Source: Parvularcula dongshanensis (GTDB lineage Bacteria; Pseudomonadota; Alphaproteobacteria; Caulobacterales; Parvularculaceae). From it: 64,000 bases of DNA. Positions 51,844 through 59,321 of this stretch are shown here, in pieces. The stretch is taken from assembly GCF_014199615.1 (NCBI RefSeq), contig NZ_JACHOB010000006.1, positions 124,001-188,000 on the forward strand. Direction: 5' to 3'. Both the position numbers and the translations under genes were made by a program. Numbering within the stretch: the stretch's first letter is position 1; each line of letters starts with the position of its first letter. The notes under the pieces were generated by a model. The model did no database searches. It was not told the DNA's origin and saw only the letters and a list, made by a program, of their open reading frames with translations.

Positions 51844-52863
51844 ATGAGCGCAGACATCGCCCGGCGGAAGGCCGACCACATCGACGCCGTCCTGTCCGGC
51901 GACGTCGGCTTCAAGGGGCTGACCACGGGCCTCGAGGCAATCCGGTTCGAGCACTGCGCCCTGCCCGAGCTCGCCCTTGGTGACGTCGACCTCTCCGCGA
52001 CGCTGTTCGGCCGACCGATGCGCCTTCCCTTCTTGATCTCGTCCATGACGGGCGGACCGGCGCGCGCGGCGGGCATCAACGAGGCGTTGGGCGAAGCGGC
52101 GGAAGCTTTGGGGCTGGCCCTCGCCGTGGGCAGTCAGCGGATCGCGCTCGAGGAGCGAGGCTCTGCGGGGCTCGGCGCGGACCTGCGCCGCCGCTGCCCT
52201 TCGATCCCCCTCGTCGGCAACATCGGCGCAGCGCAACTGCTTGGCCGGGACGCGGTCGATGCGGCCCGCCAGGCCCTCGACATGATCGAGGCCGACGGTC
52301 TCTTCGTGCACCTGAACCCCCTGCAGGAGGCCGTGCAACGAGGCGGCGACACCGATTGGCGCGGCGTCCTCGCCGCGATCGAGGCGATCGCGCGCGCAGG
52401 AGTGCCGGTCGCGGTGAAGGAGGTCGGGTTCGGCCTCTCAGCCGCCGTCGTCCGGCGACTGACCGAGGCGGGCGTCGTCGTGATCGACGTGGCGGGCGCG
52501 GGCGGCACGAACTGGGCGCGCGTCGAGGGCGCGCGGGACACGGACGGCACGGCCGTGGCCGAGGCGTTCGCCGGGTGGGGCGTGCCGACGGCCCGCGCCG
52601 TTCGGGAAGCGCGCGCCGTCGCACCCGAAGCGGTGATCATCGCTTCGGGCGGCCTCAGAGACGGGGTTGACGCGGCCAAGGCGATCCGCCTGGGCGCGGA
52701 CCTCGCCGGGTTCGCGGGCGCGGTGCTCAACGCCGCGACGACCAGCGCCGAGGCCGTCGCCGCCCGCTTCGAGGCTCTGGCGACGCAACTGCGCGTCGCC
52801 TGCTTCTGCACCGGCAGCGCCGACCTCGCCCAGCTGCGAGAAGCGCCGCTTCAGGCTTCCTGA
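51844..52863 (+). CDS. fni: Type 2 isopentenyl-diphosphate delta-isomerase
   Basis: 339 residues, FMN-dependent TIM barrel. [50 protein letters not shown] (His and Gln active-site segment), [22 protein letters not shown] and [20 protein letters not shown] match type 2 Idi. It interconverts IPP and DMAPP, supplying CrtE. GAGG precedes ATG 51844; ATG 51826 is a possible longer start. It is divergent from crtE with about 120 bases between starts. Its 3' end overlaps the convergent anchor protein gene by 13 bases. Confidence 0.93.
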
Positions 52864-53771
52864 GCCTTCCGCGCCCGGCGGGCGCCGACGAGACCCGCAA
52901 GGCCGGTCGCCATCAGAAGCGCCGGGGCGGGAAGCGGCACGGGCGCACCGCCGAGATCGCCCATGAAGAGCGGGCCGTCCACTTCGACCGTTTGGAAGAG
53001 CGACCCGACCACGACCGATCCCTCGATCCGCCCGCCCGTGAACCGCGCGGCGGCGTCGGGCGCGAGGAGGGAAGCCGAGAAGGCCGCGCCGATGTCGATC
53101 GTCTCCGCCTCGTAGAAGTTGAAGATCACGTCGGCGAACGGACCGTTGAAGTTGAACCCGCCGCCAAGGTCGATGTCGGTGCCCGACACGTTGACGACCG
53201 TCGTGGTCCCGCCCGTGGCGAAGCTGAGGTTGGAGACGCCCGAGAAGAAGCTCGCATCGAGGTCGAAGACCGCGATCCCGTCGGCGCCGGCCGCGGAGGT
53301 GAGCACCGCGTTCTGGCCGCCCGTGATGGAGCCGCCGGTATCGACGAGCCGGGCGAGGTCGGTGGAAAGGCCGTGCATGGCCGTGGCCACGCCGCTGACG
53401 TTCACCGGGGCGTTCGTGATCGTACCCCCGTCATTGTTGTAGAGTCGCCCGTTCGCGTTCCCGCCGATCACGATGTCGCCTTCGAACACCCGGACGCCGC
53501 CATACTGGGCACCCAAGAGGTCACCGCCGACGACGAGGCTCGCGCCGAACTCGGCACCATTGGGCAGCCGGTCCGGATTGACCCCGTAGACACCGTCCGA
53601 CGTCAAATCGCCGCCGACGAAGACGGTCCCTTCGGTCTCGGACGAGACCGTGGCGTCACCGAGGACGATCAGGTTGTACTGGGCGAGGAGGTCGGCCGCG
53701 ACGGGTGCGGCGTGCGCGGTGGTCGAGAGCAGGCTCGCCGCGAGGGCGGCGGCGAGGATACGCTTGGTCAT
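52851..53771 (-). CDS. Choice-of-anchor A family surface protein with VPLPA-CTERM tail
   Basis: 306 residues. Signal peptide ([17 protein letters not shown]) followed by the choice-of-anchor A domain: [57 protein letters not shown], and near the end [20 protein letters not shown]. The C-terminus has [20 protein letters not shown] then RRARKA, a PEP-CTERM-like sorting signal: motif, hydrophobic helix, Arg cluster. It should be exported, processed by an exosortase and released to the surface or matrix. No exosortase gene is in the window. Function beyond the domain is unknown. Confidence 0.85.
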
Positions 53772-56422: not shown

Positions 56423-57673
56423 ATGTTCAAGAAGCTACGCCCCTTCGAGGAGTCAGAGCGGGGTTCGGTGACCGTGCTCTTCGGGCTCAGCCTTCCGGCA
56501 CTGCTCGGCTTCTGCGCCCTCGGTACGGAGGTCGCTTACTGGCAGTACAATGAGCGCACCTTGCAGAACGCGGCGGACGCCGCCGCCTACTCCGCCGCGG
56601 CGCAGATGGCGCAGGGCCGAGATGAGGACGAGATCAGGGCGGCTGCCGAGAGCGCCGCTGTCGAGAGCGGCTTCGACCCGGCCGCGAGCGATACGCCTTA
56701 CATCTCAACGCCCCCCGCCGCCGGCGCCTTCGCCGGGGACGACAGCGCGGTCGAGGTGGAGATCGTCACCCACCTGCCCCGGATGTTCACGCAGGTCTTC
56801 TTCCACGAGGAAACGATCACGCTAAGAGCGCGCTCCGTCGCCCGGACCGCAGGTCAACGGCCTGCATGTGTCCTCGCGCTCGACCCCTCGGCCTCCTCGG
56901 CGATGACCTTCCAGGGTTCGTCCGATGTCGTCGTCGCAGGCTGCGACCTCGCGGCCAACTCCATCTCCTCGAACGCGATGGACTTCAGCGGCGCGACCAA
57001 CGTGGTCGCCGACTGCGCCTCCGCCGTCGGCGGCATTACGGGCGAGCACAACTCCCTGACCCTTACGGACTGCGCCCGGGCTTACGAAGGCGCGCGCCTG
57101 ACGCCAGATCCCTTCCGCAAGCGGATCATGCCGCAGCCGAACGGGTGCGACAGCGCGCTCGAGAGCGGCTTCAAGGGCAGCGGCACGCTTTCGCCGGGCA
57201 CCGTCTGCGGCGACGTGACGATCCACGGCGACCTGACGCTCGAGCCCGGCACCTACATCTTCAACGGCGCCGACGTGCGGGTGAACGCCGGCACCCGTCT
57301 GCGCGGCGAGGGCGTCACCCTCGTCTTCCTGAACGGGGCGGAGATCGACATGAACGGCGGCGCCGACGTCAAGATCACCGCGCCGACCGACCCTGCGGAC
57401 GAGATGTTCGGCATCGTGATGTTCGGCGACCGCGACGCGTCGGGCGCCGAGCACGTTCTCAACGGCAACAGCGCCACCTCGTTCACGGGCGCGCTCTACT
57501 TTCCCGCCAGCCGCGTCGAGTTCGAGGGCACGAACGTCGCCTCGCCCGGGGCGTGCACGCTGCTGATCGCGAACACCGTCAAGTTTACCGGCAACAGCTA
57601 CTTCGGCTCGGACTGCACCGGCCTCGGACTCGAAGCGCCCGAGACCTCGCAGGTCGTTCTGATCGTGGAGTGA
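56423..57673 (+). CDS. TadG-like pilus assembly/surface protein with beta-repeat C-terminus
   Basis: 416 residues. The N-terminus ERGSVTVLFGLSLPALLGFC and the following helix, then QYNERTLQNAADAAAYSAA, are the TadE/TadG-type pseudopilin start of Flp pilus systems. The rest (residues about 165-410) has repeated beta-strand units (GDVTIHGDLTLEPGTYIFNG, then VRVNAGTRLRGEGVTLVFLN) like a polymer-forming beta-helix, and paired cysteines. ATG 56423 has GGAG upstream. Two TadE-like genes follow at 4-base spacing or overlap. The Tad secretion ATPase and platform genes are not in the window. Confidence 0.82.
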   Translation: MFKKLRPFEESERGSVTVLFGLSLPALLGFCALGTEVAYWQYNERTLQNAADAAAYSAAAQMAQGRDEDEIRAAAESAAVESGFDPAASDTPYISTPPAAGAFAGDDSAVEVEIVTHLPRMFTQVFFHEETITLRARSVARTAGQRPACVLALDPSASSAMTFQGSSDVVVAGCDLAANSISSNAMDFSGATNVVADCASAVGGITGEHNSLTLTDCARAYEGARLTPDPFRKRIMPQPNGCDSALESGFKGSGTLSPGTVCGDVTIHGDLTLEPGTYIFNGADVRVNAGTRLRGEGVTLVFLNGAEIDMNGGADVKITAPTDPADEMFGIVMFGDRDASGAEHVLNGNSATSFTGALYFPASRVEFEGTNVASPGACTLLIANTVKFTGNSYFGSDCTGLGLEAPETSQVVLIVE

Positions 57674-57677
57674 TCCG

Positions 57678-58157
57678 ATGCGGAAGCGTTCCTTCGCCGC
57701 CAGGTTTTCGTCGTTTGCCCGCCGCCAGGACGGCGTCGCCGCGAGCGAGGCGGCGTTCATCGTCCCGCTGCTCGTGATGGCGCTGATGTCGATCTTCGAC
57801 CTCGGCTTCGCCAGCACCTCGCGGATGCAACTCGACCATGCCTTAAGGACCGGAACGCAGCTCATCATGATGAACGTCCACGACGAGGACGCGGTGGAGG
57901 CGGCGACGCTCGCGACGCTCGAAGAGACGCAAAGCGGCTCGATGCGGAACGACGGGATGTGCGAACCGGACAAGACCTGCCTCACGGTGGTCCAGACCTG
58001 CCGCTGCGGTTCGGCGGCGTCGAGCTGCACGACGCTTTGCTCGGCCACGAGCCTGCCGCCGAGCGCGTTCATGACGATCACCGCGCTGCGGCGCTACGAA
58101 GGCATCTTTCTGGACGACAGGCCCGTCGGCGCGACCATCACGGTTCAGACCCGATGA
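57678..58157 (+). CDS. TadE-like pilus assembly protein
   Basis: 159 residues. RRQDGVAASEAAFIVPLLVM with the invariant Glu before the hydrophobic helix, then the DLGFASTSRMQLDHALRTGT segment, is the TadE pseudopilin signature. The C-terminal part has a cysteine-rich stretch (CEPDKTCLTVVQTCRCGSAA). It would be exported by the Tad/Flp system and processed by its prepilin peptidase. It starts 4 bases after the TadG-like gene, and its stop overlaps the next TadE-like gene. Confidence 0.82.
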   Translation: MRKRSFAARFSSFARRQDGVAASEAAFIVPLLVMALMSIFDLGFASTSRMQLDHALRTGTQLIMMNVHDEDAVEAATLATLEETQSGSMRNDGMCEPDKTCLTVVQTCRCGSAASSCTTLCSATSLPPSAFMTITALRRYEGIFLDDRPVGATITVQTR

Positions 58158-58567
58158 GGCGCTCGCTATGGCGACGGGTCCGGACCGCCGAGGACGGCGT
58201 GACGAGCATCGAGTTCGCCTTCGTCCTGCCGCCGATCTTCCTACTGATGTTCTGCCTCTTCGACATCGGCTACGCGCACTTCGTCCGGAACAGCTTCGAG
58301 ACCGCGGTGCGCGACGCGGCCCGGACGGTCTTCATCGAGCCGACGACGACCGAAGCGGAGATCCATGCGCGTCTCGACGCCGCCGTCTCCTCCTTCGGCG
58401 AGGCGGTGACGACCGAGATCACGCAGGAAGAGATCGGCACCACGACCTACTGGGTCCTGTCCGCCCAGATGCCCTACCGTTACGTCGTCCCGCCTCTGTC
58501 GAGCCTCACCGTAACGCTGCACGGCGAGGGTCGGGCGCCCGTGATCAACTATCAGGTCGACGGTTAG
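58154..58567 (+). CDS. TadE-like pilus assembly protein
   Basis: 137 residues. EDGVTSIEFAFVLPPIFLLM is the TadE signature with Glu at the processing-site position, followed by FDIGYAHFVRNSFETAVRDA and a C-terminal beta-rich region. ATG 58154 overlaps the previous stop by 4 bases, so the three Tad-like genes form one operon. Its 3' end overlaps the end of the convergent Crp/Fnr gene by 23 bases. Confidence 0.85.
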   Translation: MRRSLWRRVRTAEDGVTSIEFAFVLPPIFLLMFCLFDIGYAHFVRNSFETAVRDAARTVFIEPTTTEAEIHARLDAAVSSFGEAVTTEITQEEIGTTTYWVLSAQMPYRYVVPPLSSLTVTLHGEGRAPVINYQVDG

Positions 58568-59321
58568 GGTCCGCCTCGGGCATGCCCGCCAGCATCCAGG
58601 ACAGCGGCACGGCGCGGCGGCGCTCGGTGAACTCTGAGAAGCTCGCGAGGGCCGGGACGTCCGGTACGTGTACGCTCCGCCCCGACCGATCGATTAGGCC
58701 TTGCTTCTCGAGCTCGCTCATCATCCGGCTTACCGAGATGTTCGTCAGGCCGACCGCGTCTCCGATGACCGATTGATCGAGCGGCAGGTGGAAGCGCCCC
58801 GCCCGAGGCAGGCCGTCCGGGTCCGCCTGGTCGGAGAAGCATTGCAGCAAGAAGTGCCCGACACGCTTCACCGCCTCCATCCGTCCGACGACCCGCAGCC
58901 TGTCGATCATCCGGGTATGGTCGTAGATGCCGTAGGTGAGGAAGTAGGCGGCGAGCGCGGGATGCTGCGCGACCACCGTGCTGAAGTCGTCCTTGCCGAT
59001 CCGCACGATGACCCCGTCCGTCGCGGCGACCGTGTCGCAGACCGCGACCTCCCAGCCGAGGTCCTGAAGGCCCATGACGTCGCCGGGCTGATAGACGGTG
59101 TAGACCTGTCGCCCACCGTCGCCGAGCGTCGAGCAGTCGAAGAACCAGCCCTGCTCGACGATCCAGAACTCCACCGCCGGTCCGCCGACCTGCCGCAACT
59201 GGTCGCCTTTGCGTACGTTGCTCGTCGGGCCGAGCACGTCCATGAGCGCGCGCTTGGCTTCGTCTGAGATCGTCTCGAAGACGTTCAAGCGCCGCCGCAG
59301 GGGCTCGGCGTCGTAGGGCAT
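58545..59321 (-). CDS. Crp/Fnr-family transcriptional regulator
   Basis: 258 residues. Cyclic-nucleotide-binding-type beta-roll (VRKGDQLRQVGGPAVEFWIV, YQPGDVMGLQDL), dimerisation helix (IYDHTRMIDRLRVVGRMEAV) and a Crp-type helix-turn-helix (LDQSVIGDAVGLTNISVSRM, then SELEKQGLIDR). There is no Fnr-like N-terminal cysteine cluster, so it is not an oxygen sensor of the Fnr kind. The ligand is unknown. It is convergent with the Tad-like operon and could regulate it, but no binding site is evident. Confidence 0.87.
   Translation of the reverse strand: MPYDAEPLRRRLNVFETISDEAKRALMDVLGPTSNVRKGDQLRQVGGPAVEFWIVEQGWFFDCSTLGDGGRQVYTVYQPGDVMGLQDLGWEVAVCDTVAATDGVIVRIGKDDFSTVVAQHPALAAYFLTYGIYDHTRMIDRLRVVGRMEAVKRVGHFLLQCFSDQADPDGLPRAGRFHLPLDQSVIGDAVGLTNISVSRMMSELEKQGLIDRSGRSVHVPDVPALASFSEFTERRRAVPLSWMLAGMPEADPNRRPDS

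Follow-up and report, generated by a model that had tools for sequence, protein, structure and literature searches.

A Tad minor-pilin trio with a predicted beta-solenoid head in Parvularcula dongshanensis, a probable accessory tip set for a machine encoded elsewhere

What function can be attributed to three Tad minor-pilin genes that lie together in a region devoid of the Tad secretion machine? This question is raised by a locus at 56423-58567 of the window, that is, the whole stretch of 64,000 nucleotides of Parvularcula dongshanensis that was analysed (contig C6:124001-188000; the assembly comprises 3.13 Mb in 16 contigs and is 99.98% complete). A preliminary description of this DNA had placed a TadG/TadE-type trio here, and the Pfam scan bears it out, with three genes matching the Tad (PF13400) or TadE (PF07811) families over their cut-offs:

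56423-57673, plus strand: TadG-type minor pilin (TadG-beta, P0001), 416 aa from ATG, PF13400 over cut-off
57678-58157, plus strand: TadE-type minor pilin 1 (TadE1, P0002), 159 aa, PF07811 over cut-off
58154-58567, plus strand: TadE-type minor pilin 2 (TadE2, P0003), 137 aa, TadF-like by position, PF07811 over cut-off

The trio and the predicted fold of its TadG

The PF13400 match of P0001 scores 36.1 bits for a cut-off of 22.3, and the PF07811 matches of P0002 and P0003 reach 35.9 and 48.2 bits for a cut-off of 22.9; Tad and TadE are the only pilin families matched by the three proteins at a limit of E<=1. The three frames are intact and coupled, with 4 bases between the first two genes and a 4-base overlap (ATGA) between the second and the third, a tight arrangement that argues for the operon proposed earlier. 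An alternative GTG start exists for P0001 at 56417, besides the ATG at 56423. P0003 carries the full GxxxxEF form of the prepilin-peptidase motif, as this motif is given in part of PMC10934763, at residues 15-21, and its G15, E20 and F21 do not vary among the 12 sequences aligned. In P0002 the motif reads G-x4-E at residues 19-24 and is followed by A rather than F; among 13 aligned sequences, E24 and the C108, C110 and C117 of its cysteine-rich C-terminal half are invariant, and G19 is nearly so. A gene for a Crp-type regulator (58545-59321, minus strand) is convergent with the trio and overlaps its end by 23 bases; its product could be a putative regulator of these genes.

P0001 begins with a helix at residues 12-63, followed by a pilin-like part and by a predicted beta-solenoid head at about 145-400. 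No von Willebrand (vWA) domain is listed for it in the Pfam scan at E<=1, in agreement with the earlier view of a TadG-like protein with a long beta region in place of this domain. The structure prediction that the preliminary description had recommended for the repeat region was obtained with AlphaFold2 from an alignment of 13 sequences (pLDDT 81.9, pTM 0.66). When this model was compared with known structures by VIA-align, ice-binding proteins made up 25 of the best 50 rows, with Z scores of 12.4-14.1 over residues 145-400 approximately (to 415 in two rows), 175-193 aligned residues and an rmsd of 3.1-4.1; the other solenoids among the matches listed scored 8.6 or less. One row title names DUF3494, and the remaining ice-binding rows are presumably of the same type. 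The pilin ComZ (PDB 6qvi) aligns over residues 32-416 with a Z score of 12.4 and an rmsd of 10.7. Foldseek also ranks ComZ and ice-binding proteins first, its best E value being 4.6e-3 and thus not below 0.001. By sequence, no ice-binding Pfam family is listed for P0001 at E<=1, and no solved structure was found in the PDB at E<=0.1 for the TadG-beta profile or for P0004, the anchor A protein described below. The C-terminal 250 residues or so of TadG-beta are predicted by the model comparison to fold as a beta-solenoid like that of ice-binding proteins, and the whole protein as a pilin domain bearing this solenoid, in an arrangement resembling that of ComZ. The head contains eight cysteines (149, 174, 198, 217, 242, 262, 378 and 398), seven of them invariant in alignment A3 and C262 nearly so, and these may pair in disulfides. 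It is strongly acidic (pI 4.34), with 14 K+R for 31 D+E. A match to DUF7305 (PF23981) remains below the cut-off in P0001 (21.0 bits for 27), and 13 of 26 aligned members match this family at E<=0.01.

The preliminary description had also attributed similar GD-containing strand repeats to a second protein of the window:

52851-53771, minus strand: choice-of-anchor A protein (pAdhesive_15; P0004), with a sub-threshold VPLPA-CTERM tail match

This likeness found no support at the sequence level. GD dipeptides occur at chance frequency in the two proteins (3 for 2.2 expected, P=0.38; 5 for 3.4 expected, P=0.24), which removes the GD-repeat signature, and an hhalign comparison of the P0001 profile with P0004 as a single sequence reveals no similarity (probability 0.4%). 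The Pfam scan lists no choice-of-anchor A or pAdhesive_15 match in P0001. The dipeptide counts and the hhalign result led to the rejection, at the sequence level, of a kinship between the TadG head and anchor A. The Pfam name of the P0004 domain is 'ice-binding-like', and the single-sequence fold model of this protein (pLDDT 42.8) is of too low a quality to be set beside that of the TadG head. P0004 otherwise looks ordinary.

The Tad machine and a second trio in the same genome

A profile search of the whole genome detected no gene for a Tad ATPase, platform protein or secretin within the window. All the matches to these families (two T2SSE, four T2SSF and two secretins) are carried by contig C1, and the window belongs to C6; the absence of CpaF/TadA, TadB/C and RcpA from this region is therefore confirmed. 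The search for the rest of the Tad locus, also recommended earlier, brought out a single locus at about C1:264-274 kb (L018). Prepilin peptidase, CpaB, secretin, CpaD, CpaF and one T2SSF platform protein are found there over Pfam cut-offs, and the profile search adds two Flp pilins and a second platform protein. CpaE and TadD are putative labels based on gene order and general look, CpaE having no Pfam match over cut-off. No TadE-family match was detected in this locus at E<=0.001 that could represent its own tadE, tadF or tadG. A second T2SSE/T2SSF/secretin set, near 146-149 kb of C1, is probably a type II secretion system.

The genome contains six TadE-family matches (E<=0.001; five of the six over cut-off), all on C6 and distributed in two trios. 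One is the trio under study, hereafter trio B; the other is located 59 kb upstream on the same contig:

C6:117390-121004 (L007:13390-17004), 3 kb before the window: trio A, a vWA TadG gene and two TadE genes

The TadG of trio A (776 aa) shows a vWA match (PF00092) of 29.4 bits for a cut-off of 23.8; its Tad domain reaches 25.2 bits in the genome search and 19.2 bits, below cut-off, in the protein scan. Like trio B, trio A is detached from the machine locus. The machine is encoded elsewhere, no tadE/F/G set of its own was detected, and two candidate sets for it are available in the cell. The export of the trio proteins by a distant Tad system, as suggested in the preliminary description, is thus well supported, both by the C1 locus lacking a detected TadE-family gene and by the class-wide co-occurrence described below. 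Among the findings that would speak against its interpretation, the same description had named a complete Tad locus with a full TadE/F/G set of its own, combined with a lack of expression of the trio. The genome fits this in part: a second set, of the vWA type, does exist 59 kb away, but it lies outside the machine locus.

Distribution of solenoid TadG genes and association with the Tad machine

Of the 62 family genomes, 33 contain a relative of P0001 (E<=1e-5), the genome of P. dongshanensis being counted. Ten of 14 named loci bear the names Parvularculaceae, Marinicaulis or Amphiplicatus, the last two presumably being genera of Parvularculaceae; the others come from two Alphaproteobacteria MAGs, one Rhodospirillaceae MAG and one Afifella MAG. 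At the level of the class, 290 sampled genomes with a completeness of at least 95%, again including this one, were surveyed at E<=1e-20, and relatives were found in at least 30, no more than six candidates per genome having been scored in many of them.

Twenty related stretches were compared. TBLASTN found all three trio genes in nine of them; in 14, representing 13 other genomes, a frame for TadG-beta stands next to two frames of the TadE cluster. In one genome of 83% completeness (G022), the TadG-beta gene is split across two frames. Eleven neighbors of the trio in the window (for example proB, a HerA-like ATPase, the Crp-type regulator and gmk) are unmatched among the listed matches in the 20 stretches. 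Flanking genes are nevertheless common to some of the related stretches (L061 and L063-L066; also L054, L057 and L062), so the trio does not occupy random places. A recent transfer between genera is not claimed, a tree of 18 TadG-beta proteins following mostly the genera within the trio clade; G024 is an exception to this order, and two long branches make part of the tree unsure. Tandem runs of two to at least three divergent TadG-beta genes were observed in four family genomes (L069:7530-11840, L070:1-4074, L071:7356-10126 and L073:7125-11295), with no TadE among the TBLASTN matches listed for these four stretches. The predicted solenoid TadGs form a scattered class, one member of which belongs to trio B, a stand-alone putative Tad tip trio.

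The association with the machine was assessed with the marker RcpC/CpaB, the p-values being only indicative as genomes are related and not independent. In the family, the marker is present in 56 of 62 genomes, 32 of the 33 with a relative of TadG-beta and 24 of the 29 without (p=0.09). When only genomes at least 90% complete and at most 5% contaminated are retained, these proportions become 26/26 and 13/16 (p=0.049). The association within the family is weak. In the class, where RcpC was detected in 130 of 290 genomes, it accompanies 29 of the 30 relatives, this count being a lower bound, versus 101 of the 260 remaining genomes (Fisher p=2e-10; 28/29 and p=5e-10 when the genome of P. dongshanensis is left out). 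In 14 of these 30 genomes, no more than 15 kb separate the TadG-beta gene from RcpC. A relative without detected RcpC was encountered in a single class genome (G120) and in one family genome of 81% completeness (G005).

A sister genome in a single contig, 99% complete (G050), is equipped with one Tad machine (L082). It encodes only four Tad-domain proteins at E<=0.01, in open frames of 436-453 aa, namely the ortholog of the trio B TadG and a tandem run of three, and each of them can be aligned to P0001 over nearly its full length. No vWA TadG was detected in this genome at E<=1e-10, a threshold that a very divergent one could escape. Another family genome (G001) combines one CpaB gene with TadGs of both types, its vWA TadG match being weak.

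Relatives of P0001 also occur on 116 plasmid records, of which 77 are from Sinorhizobium. Two pSymA records, one from S. medicae and one from S. meliloti, place the gene within a Tad cluster:

L100:11938-13233 and L099:11947-13257: TadG-beta-type genes in pSymA Tad clusters

In both, the gene adjoins a prepilin peptidase gene, and CpaF, Flp and TadE are encoded nearby; both proteins exceed the Tad family cut-off. P0001 and the S. meliloti protein share 37% identity across 399 alignment columns. PMC10934763 reports that the flp-2 cluster of pSymA is functional in pilus formation, and also reports the absence of a tadG homologue from S. meliloti. By gene order, rather than by the Rm1021 or GR4 sequence, the TadG-beta gene of S. 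meliloti pSymA is putatively sma1579, and the flp-2 cluster thereby gains a TadG candidate.

An accessory pilus tip and the competing explanations

Detached sets of this kind are already known. In Myxococcus, a single Tad pilus, Kil, is served by four tip complexes of the TadE/F/G type, each encoded by its own gene cluster; genetics links these complexes to predation, and they are modelled as interchangeable tips in the sections of PMC12075869 devoted to them. KilL/M/N of M. xanthus resemble trio B as three-gene minor-pilin clusters, several per genome and mostly away from the machine, with one large pilin carrying a variable head and one Tad-like machine. They differ in that the extra domain of KilN4 has, according to the same sections, no structural relative in the PDB, whereas the head of trio B is predicted to be an ice-binding-like solenoid, and in that their role is tied to predation by genetics, whereas that of trio B is a presumed one. 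In Caulobacter, a model places the vWA TadG CpaL at the tip, together with CpaJ and CpaK (extracts of PMC12607857). CpaL and trio A share with trio B a pilin N-terminus, a large head and two TadE-family partners; unlike them, the trio B TadG has no detected vWA domain, and it is shorter than the TadG of trio A (416 versus 776 aa). The tadGEF genes of Bradyrhizobium diazoefficiens similarly form a stand-alone set, away from the main Tad clusters, whose loss is reported to reduce adhesion to soybean roots (parts of PMC10934763 and PMC12918737). A search of the open-licence PMC literature for a solenoid or beta-helix TadG, or for DUF7305, returned no description under these terms, which other wording could escape; in the portions of PMC7716237 retrieved, TadG and beta-helix appear in mutually unrelated passages. 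Trio-type tip sets are known already, and the class of solenoid-headed TadGs is apparently undescribed and little noticed under the terms searched.

The explanation that is favored, with reasonable confidence, is that trio B constitutes an accessory minor-pilin complex for the tip of the cell's Tad pilus, alternative to the vWA-headed trio. TadG-beta, TadE1 and TadE2 would be inserted in the inner membrane and processed by the Tad prepilin peptidase; their N-terminal helices would then bundle, and the resulting complex would prime or cap the pilus. The beta-solenoid head, probably braced by disulfides, would be exposed at the tip as a receptor or adhesin, and would recognise something that the vWA head of trio A, 59 kb upstream, does not. 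The predicted fold, a pilin bearing an ice-binding-like solenoid as in ComZ, which is itself placed at the pilus tip on steric grounds (excerpts of PMC6561018), favors this explanation, as does the TadG of this type inside the Tad cluster of Sinorhizobium pSymA. The tip position and the swapping of tips are suggested by analogy with Myxococcus and Caulobacter; processing, trimer formation, interchangeability and ligand binding are likewise presumed. An adhesive role, as envisaged in the preliminary description, is plausible for these proteins. Its other suggestion, a shell-forming function, found no support, the published proposal for such trios being that of a pilus-tip complex in the relevant pages of PMC12075869.

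An improbable but serious competitor is that trio B once served a second, divergent Tad machine, since lost from this lineage, and persists as its leftover tip set, unused or residually used. Machines of this kind are present in some family genomes (L074, L075, L077, L078, L079, L080 and L083/L068), where cpaF shares about 46-50% identity with that of the primary machine, and none is present in P. dongshanensis. Strong orthologs (E<=1e-60) occur in 12 genomes, 6 of which possess two CpaB genes, as do only 3 of the 50 others (p=0.0009); in G020 a more distant TadG-beta adjoins the second machine (L068). Both observations favor such an origin. However, the other half of the strong-ortholog genomes, including the single-contig G050 and G057, have one CpaB only. 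Six second-machine loci were compared around CpaB, excluding L076, which ends at a contig end, and L083 (G020), and in four of them the locus itself gives a weak TadE-like match; in G044 and G024, moreover, a Tad-domain protein (486-aa frame) is encoded 2-3 kb from the second CpaB. The intact and coupled frames of trio B also argue against a relic.

A special binding function like that of the relatives of the fold, either DNA capture or ice binding, is very unlikely. In its favor, ice-binding proteins and ComZ are the closest folds to the modelled head. In ComZ of Thermus thermophilus, the solenoid is inserted in the pilin and has an ice-binding protein as its closest relative; ComZ binds DNA, and its location at the pilus tip is argued on steric grounds (excerpts of PMC6561018). 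TadG-beta as modelled would share with it the pilin domain bearing such a solenoid; ComZ differs in belonging to a competence type IV pilus, in having its solenoid inserted in the pilin sheet and in its binding of DNA (same excerpts). The acidity of the TadG-beta head (pI 4.34) and the lack of any ice-binding Pfam family listed at E<=1 speak against this function, and for ComZ itself the discussion excerpted from PMC6561018 drew no clue to function from the resemblance to ice-binding proteins. Acidity alone is no bar to DNA binding, since ComZ, as described there, binds DNA without marked positive patches.

The least probable proposal, in which the trio proteins are helix-anchored surface adhesins, envelope or shell proteins, or substrates of the probable type II secretion system of C1, and take no part in a pilus, draws on that system and on the resemblance of the modelled head to free-standing secreted solenoids; it is opposed by the match to TadE and Tad as the only pilin families at E<=1 and by the strong co-occurrence and linkage with the Tad machine marker.

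From the accessory-tip explanation a wider one can be derived, in which alphaproteobacterial Tad pili possess at least two interchangeable tips, one with a vWA head and one with a ComZ-like beta-solenoid, the latter being a general and overlooked receptor module. This extension is tentative and falls a little short of an even chance. If true, the solenoid tip can be the sole TadG of a cell, as in G050, or occur in tandem runs, and it fills the TadG gap reported for Sinorhizobium meliloti. Tad pili take part in surface sensing, adhesion and predation, and the targets of their tips are mostly unknown. With a second, structurally distinct class of tips in Alphaproteobacteria, whose genes often lie away from those of the machine, tip swapping becomes accessible to simple gene removals; strains possessing both trios, as P. 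dongshanensis does, could alter the recognition specificity of a single pilus.
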